Source: Ignavibacteria bacterium (lineage in GTDB: Bacteria > Bacteroidota > Ignavibacteria > UBA10030). From it: DNA of 64,000 nucleotides. Location of the stretch: the NCBI GenBank assembly GCA_016873805.1, contig VGVZ01000004.1, positions 1 to 64,000 on the forward strand, read 5' to 3'. A program made the translations under genes and the position numbers. This document shows, piece after piece, positions 1 to 60,006 of this stretch (position 1 is its first letter; the number at the start of each line of letters is the position of its first letter). The notes under the pieces are model-generated. The model was not told the origin of the DNA, searched no databases, and worked only from the letters and a program-made list of their open reading frames with translations.

Positions 1-120
1 GTTCGCTCATGGGAGCAACAGCGTAACCGTCATCGAACCACCATCTCGTGGCGCTTTACCACGAACCGGGCACGAGAAACCATGGCCCGGCATTATGCCA
101 ATGTCACACAATCATCGTAA
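1..120 (+). CDS. IS630-family transposase, C-terminal fragment (cut by window start)
   Basis: Frame 1 is open from the first base to a TAA at 118-120, giving 39 codons. The residues read W-E-Q-Q-R-N, then T-I-S-W-R-F-T-T, then A-R and R-H-Y. This matches the usual end of IS630 (Tc1/mariner-like) transposases, where a W/RN block is followed by TI-W-FTT--AR--L-RLY. Only the tail is visible, so I cannot tell whether the upstream gene is intact. Eight bases after the stop lies a CTAG site holding a miniature element. IS630 elements insert at TA, preferring CTAG, so the neighbour may be mobilised by this kind of enzyme (inference). Recognition is from memory of the family. Confidence 0.65.
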   Translation, partial: VRSWEQQRNRHRTTISWRFTTNRARETMARHYANVTQSS

Positions 121-130
121 CAGTCCACTA

Positions 131-253
131 GTGCCGCTCCCAAGAATAAATATTGTGTTTTGATGCGGGATCGGTTAATGGGAGCGAGCACTAGTGCTCG
201 TTCCAACTTGATGCTCGATGATAGGACACAAGATTGCTTTGTTGGAACGGCAC
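131..253 (+). mobile_element. Twin-hairpin miniature inverted-repeat element, copy 1
   Basis: A 123-bp element beginning GTGCCG and ending CGGCAC, flanked on both sides by TA (129-130 and 254-255) inside CTAG sites. It consists of two homologous hairpin units, 131-191 and 194-253, in inverted orientation and joined by a central TA within the palindrome GAGCACTAGTGCTC (186-199). Each unit has about 12-bp arms with one bulged T. A second copy in reverse orientation lies at 59849-59971 and differs at only five positions by my alignment. It encodes nothing convincing. The TA duplications and CTAG targets fit IS630/mariner-type mobilisation. Confidence 0.85.
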
Positions 254-281
254 TAGCAATCACATCGGAGCGCGTGCTGTC

Positions 282-58517: not shown

Positions 58518-59849
58518 ATGATGAAGCGAATAATCGGTTTTGGAAGAATGTTCAAGCGAAGGATTGCGTTCGCGACGATCGCATGCCTTGTGGGTGTGCT
58601 TGCCCCGGGCGCCTGGAGCCAACAACAAAGCCAGAGTCCATTGGTTGTCGCGGAGATCAGGATACTCGGCAACAACCAAACGAAGGATGGGACGATTCTC
58701 CGGGAAATGTCGATCCAAGTCGGTGATACGCTCTCTGAGCGCGCGATCGGCCATGATCGTCAACGAATCTATGATCTTCAGTTGTTCAACCGGGTGGATC
58801 TCCAATTTACGATCGAGCGGGACAGCGCCATCGTCTATGTGATTGTTCACGAACGATGGTATGTCTTTCCGTTCCCCGTTATTGGATTCAAATACCGGGA
58901 TCCCGATAACCTCTACTATGGTGCAGGCATCATGCACCAAAACTTTCGGGGTCGGAATGAAAAGATCTTTGCCGCCTTTGCCGTCGGATTCGATCGATGG
59001 ATTGAGGCAAGCTATTTCAATCCCAGGTTGAACAGCGATGATCTGTTTCTGCGGACCTCTCTTCAATCCGCGAAGCTCCAGAACCTCCGTCCGGAGATGG
59101 GATTCTACGACCAGCAGAGGTATGGCGTCAGCCTTCTCCTCGGAAAACGATTCGGCCTGTATCAGACGTTTTCCGGATGGATCAATTATGATGTCTGGAT
59201 TGTCCCGTTCGACAGATACAGAGGGACGCTTTCTTCCAGCGGCCGCGATGCATTCCTCTCGTTCGGGCTCAGCTACAGCTATGACACACGTGATCTCCGA
59301 GAGTATGCCACCGGAGGATCTGCATACTCGGTGACAGCAATCAAAGCGGGATTGGGGACGTCGGAAGTCGATCATATGCGTCTCGGCTTTTCCGCTCGAA
59401 CGTTCCGGAAGATCACCGGAGATGTGTCGATCGGTGGACGCGTGTTCGGAACGTTCACGGCCGGAGGACCTCTTCCGCCGTACAGCTATCTCTACTTCGG
59501 GTATGATGAGAGAATCCGCGGATATTTTACCCGCATCGTCGAGGGGGAGCACGCGATCGGAACGAATGTGGAGTTTCGAATTCCGATTCTCACCCCCCGG
59601 TATCTCACAATCCCTGGACTCGTCGTTCCCCAATTCAGTGTTCTCCGGTATGGGATCTACGCAGGTATTTTCGCGGATGCGGGGAAAACGTGGTACCGAT
59701 CCGAATCGTTTTCGTCGCGACGATGGTACGCCGGAGCGGGAGGCGGACTTCATTTCCTCCTTCCGTACAGTCTCATCCTGAGAACGGAGTATGCATGGAA
59801 CGATCGGGGGAGCGGTGAATTCGTTCTGGATATCGGGGCGGCATTCTAG
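58518..59849 (+). CDS. BamA/TamA-family outer-membrane protein with one POTRA domain
   Basis: 443 aa. Signal peptide ending A-P-G-A-W-S-Q, one POTRA-like domain (V-V-A-E-I-R-I-L-G-N-N-Q-T-K-D ... L-F-N-R-V-D-L), then a 16-strand-type barrel with G-Y-D-E-R-I-R-G-Y and a C-terminal Phe. Much shorter than BamA (five POTRA), so it is a TamA/ShlB-like or lineage-specific insertase or transporter. Its TAG stop lies in the CTAG target of the miniature element at 59849-59971. Its ribosome site is inside the upstream terminator hairpin. Confidence 0.88.
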   Translation: MMKRIIGFGRMFKRRIAFATIACLVGVLAPGAWSQQQSQSPLVVAEIRILGNNQTKDGTILREMSIQVGDTLSERAIGHDRQRIYDLQLFNRVDLQFTIERDSAIVYVIVHERWYVFPFPVIGFKYRDPDNLYYGAGIMHQNFRGRNEKIFAAFAVGFDRWIEASYFNPRLNSDDLFLRTSLQSAKLQNLRPEMGFYDQQRYGVSLLLGKRFGLYQTFSGWINYDVWIVPFDRYRGTLSSSGRDAFLSFGLSYSYDTRDLREYATGGSAYSVTAIKAGLGTSEVDHMRLGFSARTFRKITGDVSIGGRVFGTFTAGGPLPPYSYLYFGYDERIRGYFTRIVEGEHAIGTNVEFRIPILTPRYLTIPGLVVPQFSVLRYGIYAGIFADAGKTWYRSESFSSRRWYAGAGGGLHFLLPYSLILRTEYAWNDRGSGEFVLDIGAAF

Positions 59850-59971
59850 TGCCGTTCCAAGAAAGTAATCTTGTGTCCTATCATCGAGCATCAAGTTGGA
59901 ACGAGCACTAGTGCTCGCTCCCACTAACCGATCCCGCATCACAACACAATATTTATTTTTGGGAGCGGCAC
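59849..59971 (-). mobile_element. Twin-hairpin miniature inverted-repeat element, copy 2
   Basis: 123 bp, reverse orientation relative to copy 1 at 131-253, with five differences by my alignment. TA at 59847-59848 and 59972-59973. The central palindrome GAGCACTAGTGCTC is at 59903-59916. Removing the element and one TA rebuilds CTAG and keeps the TAG stop of the upstream barrel gene. Confidence 0.85.
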
Positions 59972-60006
59972 TAGCTGACACTCGGATCACATGCGTCTTG
60001 AGAAGT

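Follow-up and report, generated by a model that had tools for sequence, protein, structure and literature searches.

The window, that is, the whole analysed stretch of 64,000 nucleotides, has near its start a twin element of 123 bp (131-253) that precedes a deformylase gene and consists of two hairpin units in inverted orientation, joined by a TA and set between two further TAs in the arrangement C-TA...TA-G. Unit 1 (131..191, plus strand, 61 bases) begins with an outer arm at 131-142, which is at the same time a transposon end, has a TTGT motif from position 153, and ends with an inner arm at 179-191. Unit 2 (194..253, minus strand, 60 bases) is inverted and thus begins with its inner arm at 194-206 and ends with its outer arm, the other transposon end, at 242-253. 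The linking TA at 192..193 is the centre of the palindrome GAGCACTAGTGCTC (region 185-200) and is itself part of a CTAG, as are the left and right TAs of the presumed target-site duplication at 129..130 (in CTAG 128-131) and 254..255 (in CTAG 253-256); these TAs have no strand, and the same C-TA/TA-G setting recurs in nearly all copies. The twin is adjoined on its left by the end of a different multicopy IS with the terminal sequence GTGGACTGTTAC (1..128, no strand), which has the left TA in common with the twin and is not part of it. A second twin copy, 96% identical and in opposite orientation, is found with its flanking TAs at 59847..59973 (minus strand), where unit 2 (59849-59908), the joint TA (59909-59910) and unit 1 (59911-59971) follow each other between an Omp85/POTRA gene (58518-59849) and a gene for an RsmE-type methyltransferase. 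The TAG stop of the Omp85/POTRA gene (59847..59849, plus strand) is formed by the target TA and the first G of the element. No intrinsic terminator was found in this second copy.

In stem 1, positions 131-142 pair with 179-191 and A187 is left out, and in stem 2, positions 242-253 pair with 194-206 and T198 is left out, so that both units have a one-base bulge on the inner arm. At stem position 7 a C-G pair of one unit is replaced by T-A in the other, and at position 11 a C-G pair is replaced by A-T. An earlier note on this DNA had already described the twin build with its TA joint, the bulge in both stems, the two pair replacements and the reverse-oriented copy at 59849-59971, and all of this was confirmed. 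When folded as single-stranded DNA, 131-253 is more stable than 200 of 200 dinucleotide shuffles (z -4.5), and since the genome in addition contains ten copies, the twin structure is not a product of chance. A known RNA family was considered for the element and rejected, as the match was just at chance level and far below the cut-off.

The host genome (3.2 Mb in 60 contigs) was searched for further copies of the 123-bp sequence, and there are ten twins rather than just the two of the window, nine of them 93-100% identical and the tenth 77% identical along the entire length, all in unrelated flanks. The earlier note had also proposed a search for solo units of 60 bp, but such units as the basic mobile piece are not supported: a covariance model of the unit, applied to the whole genome, detected 20 units, all within the ten twins, and no lone unit. 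One clean solo hairpin unit of 41 bp, with TA on each side in CTAG, is present in a relative (L234, 386-430, in G014:C44), and it is the only such case seen. Among 61 related genomes of 40 genera, the covariance model has hits at E<=0.01 in 23 genomes and 14 genera, and hits at E<1e-3 in 11 genera, while the 123-bp sequence as query matches in 5 genomes and a diverged twin as query in 17. In the family, at least 11 genera thus include relatives with diverged versions, and the unit order, with one end type in unit 1 and the other in unit 2, recurs across all genera; in several relatives the stem of unit 2 has just 5 bp. The exact pattern of the central palindrome, searched across 85k genomes, was found in one Ignavibacteria MAG only, but the pattern is a narrow one, and the host genome itself is maybe absent from that collection.

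There are also sister elements of 160-174 bp that have the same ends with another palindromic interior and whose ends do not fold back (L114, L128, L149, L150 and L152 of G056 with 174 bp; L151 of G029 and L164 of G031 with 160-170 bp). Other GC-rich palindromes, of the TCCGAAGGA...TCCTTCGGA and CTGCC...GGCAG types, have been inserted into hairpin arms, the bulge or the twin joint, namely into the outer arm in L107, L126, L142 and L174, and into the junction or bulge in L138, L171, L172 and L235-L240. Outside the window, at G000:C4:78318-78608, three identical pattern hits are spaced by 139 bases, which suggests a 139-bp tandem repeat.

The origin of the ends can be traced in the host genome itself, where an inverted pair of the terminal sequence 1.14 kb apart (G000:C17:28432-29573) delimits an IS of about 1.14 kb. 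The DNA between its ends encodes HTH_32/HTH_29 and DDE_3 domains in two frames that overlap, and the transposase matches the IS630 family of NCBIfam (NF033545). The outer 30 bp of each twin unit agree with the ends of this IS type (L038/L070) in 20-23 of 30 bases, which none of 2000 shuffles achieved, and a TTGT at base 23 is common to all four ends. Five relatives have related ISs whose ends are of this type. A run of A (...KKN*/KKR...) divides the IS630-type transposase (L038 1699-2627, L071-L075) into two frames, at the same place in most relatives, and this looks like a conserved programmed -1 frameshifting. The twin is short, has no transposase gene and is dispersed in ten copies, nearly all of which have TA on both sides inside CTAG; the preference of IS630 for CTAG targets, with doubling of the TA, has been described (Tenzen and Ohtsubo 1991, as cited in PMC2170065). 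As the ends match the host IS, as the target is CTAG with TA, and as the element is dispersed, the twin is, judged by its sequence, a non-autonomous IS630-type MITE that presumably depends on the IS630 transposase for movement in trans, and the MITE-like nature proposed in the earlier note is supported by the ten copies in unrelated flanks. The empty sites that had been anticipated were obtained in part: orthologous sites in relatives are free of the element, but the flank on the other (right) side is too diverged to read a clean single TA. For instance, the gene upstream of the G023 copy L018 has the same end codon, without an element, in G014, G027 and G031.

In 16 of 32 cases the start of the element coincides exactly with a gene's TAG stop, the stop being rebuilt from the TA and the first G of the element. 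A targeting of stop codons was rejected, since stop codons also account for 8 of the 14 ordinary CTAG sites in the window, and the stop-codon positions follow from CTAG being the target. With about 0.23 sites per kb, CTAG is rare in the window, and more than half of those lying outside elements are TAG stops, which represent a natural safe landing place for elements that target CTAG.

The different IS with terminal GTGGACTGTTAC has 19 ends in the genome (L175-L193), at contig breaks and nearly all in CTAG, and it adjoins three of the ten twin copies, the one at 131-253 and two more, with the TA in common. Given an estimated 750 CTAG sites, the chance of this adjacency is 0.002-0.01, in line with the idea that each insertion offers new CTAG targets at its own edges, and the twin itself may plausibly have arisen by insertion into such an edge CTAG. 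A second one-hairpin MITE would then have inserted into the CTAG that was recreated at the edge of a first one, and the pair would later have become mobile as one because the inner ends decayed, with an extra base and without TTGT. We regard such a composite origin as quite conceivable, albeit at somewhat less than even odds: the two units are joined by C-TA-G, the sequence found at every insertion edge, and besides the adjacent IS there is the solo unit of 41 bp that two TAs enclose in G014, but solo units are absent from the host genome and very rare elsewhere. Moreover, the constant unit order in all genera points to one old origin after which the matched changes came, so that a composite build would account for the origin of the twin but not for its upkeep.

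The upkeep concerns the pairing. The earlier note had read the compensatory changes as selection on pairing, for which two changes in two units are insufficient, because the inverted repeats of an IS also covary under one transposase, but the reading gains its support from a set of 21 distinct units across relatives. In their 250 stem cells, in which the counts are not independent events as the sequences are related, 97.2% are paired and 20 cells have changes on both sides, compared to 5.8 in shuffles. The covariation score is 0.223, versus 0.091 in shuffles and 0.045-0.091 in controls with slid partners. Pairs 7 (CG/UA/GC), 9 (UA/CG) and 11 (CG/AU) account for 19 of the 20 both-sided changes and have no one-sided change, and there are no G-U intermediates at these varying pairs. 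Matched differences can also be seen at close range, as the G025 and G008 elements, from one genus and 85% identical, differ at pair 7 on both sides, and subfamilies A and B of G023 differ in a matched way at pair 9 of unit 2. RNAalifold recovers the identical stem unaided, and own-partner arms have a mean of -19.5 kcal/mol versus -15.2 after swaps between units, with none of 5000 swaps being as good. Pairing of the two outer arms with each other can be used in the minimum-energy DNA fold of a single sequence, but it is weaker than the pairing of each outer arm with its own inner arm in every strong twin. Nearly all units retain the bulge, at stem position 4 or 5, with T, A, C or G as its base. 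Among the G000 and G023 copies, variation was found at 1 of 432 outer-arm positions and 2 of 432 inner-arm positions, compared to 55 of 1161 positions in the rest of the element (Fisher 7e-7 for outer and 5e-6 for inner arms), and the inner arms are thus conserved equally with the transposon ends. These both-sided changes, the failed arm swaps, the conserved inner arms and the kept bulge with its varying base together support the view that stem pairing is under constraint.

Covariation as such does not demand folding, as the inverted repeats of an IS covary without it when one transposase reads both. All four arms could in principle be transposase binding sites, with outer and inner arms covarying via one protein and the folding having no role; each autonomous IS indeed has two ends that match each other 1.1 kb apart (GTTCC/GTTCC, GAACC/GAACC), which demonstrates covarying repeats that are unfolded, and a conservation of inner arms at the level of the ends would agree with binding sites. 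However, at the very positions where each outer end of a twin agrees with the inner arm of its unit, the two outer ends disagree with one another (GCTCCC vs GTTCCAA here, GCTCCC vs GTTTCC in G023), which is why one protein reading both ends is unsatisfactory, and the inner arms lack the TTGT part and have one extra base, so that we hold this possibility to be very improbable. Slightly better, but still improbable, is a templated correction, in which the nascent strand folds back during replication and one arm is copied to the other (quasipalindrome correction), giving matched changes without selection on the fold. Such copying predicts that varying pairs lack one-sided intermediates and that arms fit only within their own unit, as is the case. 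A copying over the full length would erase the bulge, though, and yet it is kept; all three stem changes among the copies within one genome are one-sided mismatches, none of them corrected, and the inner-arm variation about 10-fold below that of the rest of the element finds no explanation. Because copying leaves these three aspects unexplained, we infer that selection on the paired form is the better reading.

The twin is thus probably best explained as a non-autonomous miniature transposon of the IS630/Tc1-mariner type whose ends fold into their own hairpins and are selected for pairing. An IS630-family transposase encoded elsewhere would recognise both outer ends and paste the element into the TA of CTAG, thereby doubling the TA. 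Each outer end is adjoined by an inverted partial copy of itself, with which, in a single-stranded form (transcript or ssDNA), it would fold into a hairpin of its own, so that two hairpins stand side by side. The function of the hairpins is the least certain part of this explanation. They may perhaps act in DNA, where folding could present or join the ends of an element whose length is below the stiffness length of DNA, or, with somewhat lower probability, in RNA, where a stable transcript structure could make an insertion beside or between genes tolerable; the remaining share falls to correction or other causes. The absence of G-U at the varying pairs leans towards DNA, being odd for a role in RNA, but it would be expected from templated correction as well. 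The sister elements of G056, G029 and G031, which have no fold-back arms, have also spread, and this speaks against a strict need of the hairpins for movement. IS630/Tc1-mariner transposons are thought to require duplex ends only. A miniature lineage with compensatory upkeep of its fold-back arms would offer a natural way to test if the folding of transposon ends matters, in DNA or RNA, and the variants within one family of uncultured bacteria, in which both ends, a single end or neither end has a strong stem, are ready material for it. A stronger claim would be that IS630-type ends act as folded single-stranded hairpins, with a dedicated partner arm and a conserved bulge, compensatory upkeep across at least 11 genera, and a folded form needed for movement or persistence, and we consider this claim rather unlikely.

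Among the known systems, the REP doublets to which the earlier note had likened the element share with it the inverted pair of short palindromes and the bulged stem. REPs and BIMEs are palindromes of 20-40 bp linked to the RAYT (TnpA-REP) transposase and have no flanking TA duplications. The twin, in contrast, is bounded by TA and has IS630 ends, whereas REPs have neither a CTAG/TA insertion rule nor such ends, and a kinship is therefore not upheld, the ends belonging to an IS of the IS630 family and not to a REP/RAYT system. The Correia/NEMIS and ERIC elements are miniature elements flanked by TA, their transcripts form stable folds, and NEMIS hairpins have been proposed as RNase III substrates (PMC2229807), but they form one end-to-end stem and occur in other bacteria. 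No named twin-hairpin IS630 MITE was found in the literature searched, which mostly did not include subscription journals, nor did that literature describe IS630 ends that are each combined with a fold-back arm of their own and conserved by matched changes across genera. The statement that no named element has this build was too broad, as the CIR elements of Caulobacter and Brucella (about 110 bp) have TA termini and two halves that, connected by a linker, form independent long stem-loops (Chen and Shapiro 2003, as described in PMC2229807), and the twin likewise has two independent stem-loops and TA termini. CIRs carry GANTC methylation sites in a loop, and no parent IS is known for them, whereas the twin has no conserved GANTC in alignment A1, the loop of unit 2 in the window containing GATTG. 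RUP of Streptococcus pneumoniae, a 107-bp MITE linked to IS630-Spn1, resembles the twin in size, in a TA target duplication (presumed for the twin), IS630-family-like ends, intergenic position and in that an ORF is not needed (PMC2229807, PMC3049150). The ends of RUP, however, pair mutually in one long fold, and such a pairing of the 5' end with the 3' end is not the main fold of the twin, in which two hairpins result from pairing of the ends with their respective inner arms. RUP is thus the nearest relative in mechanism, and CIR the nearest in build.
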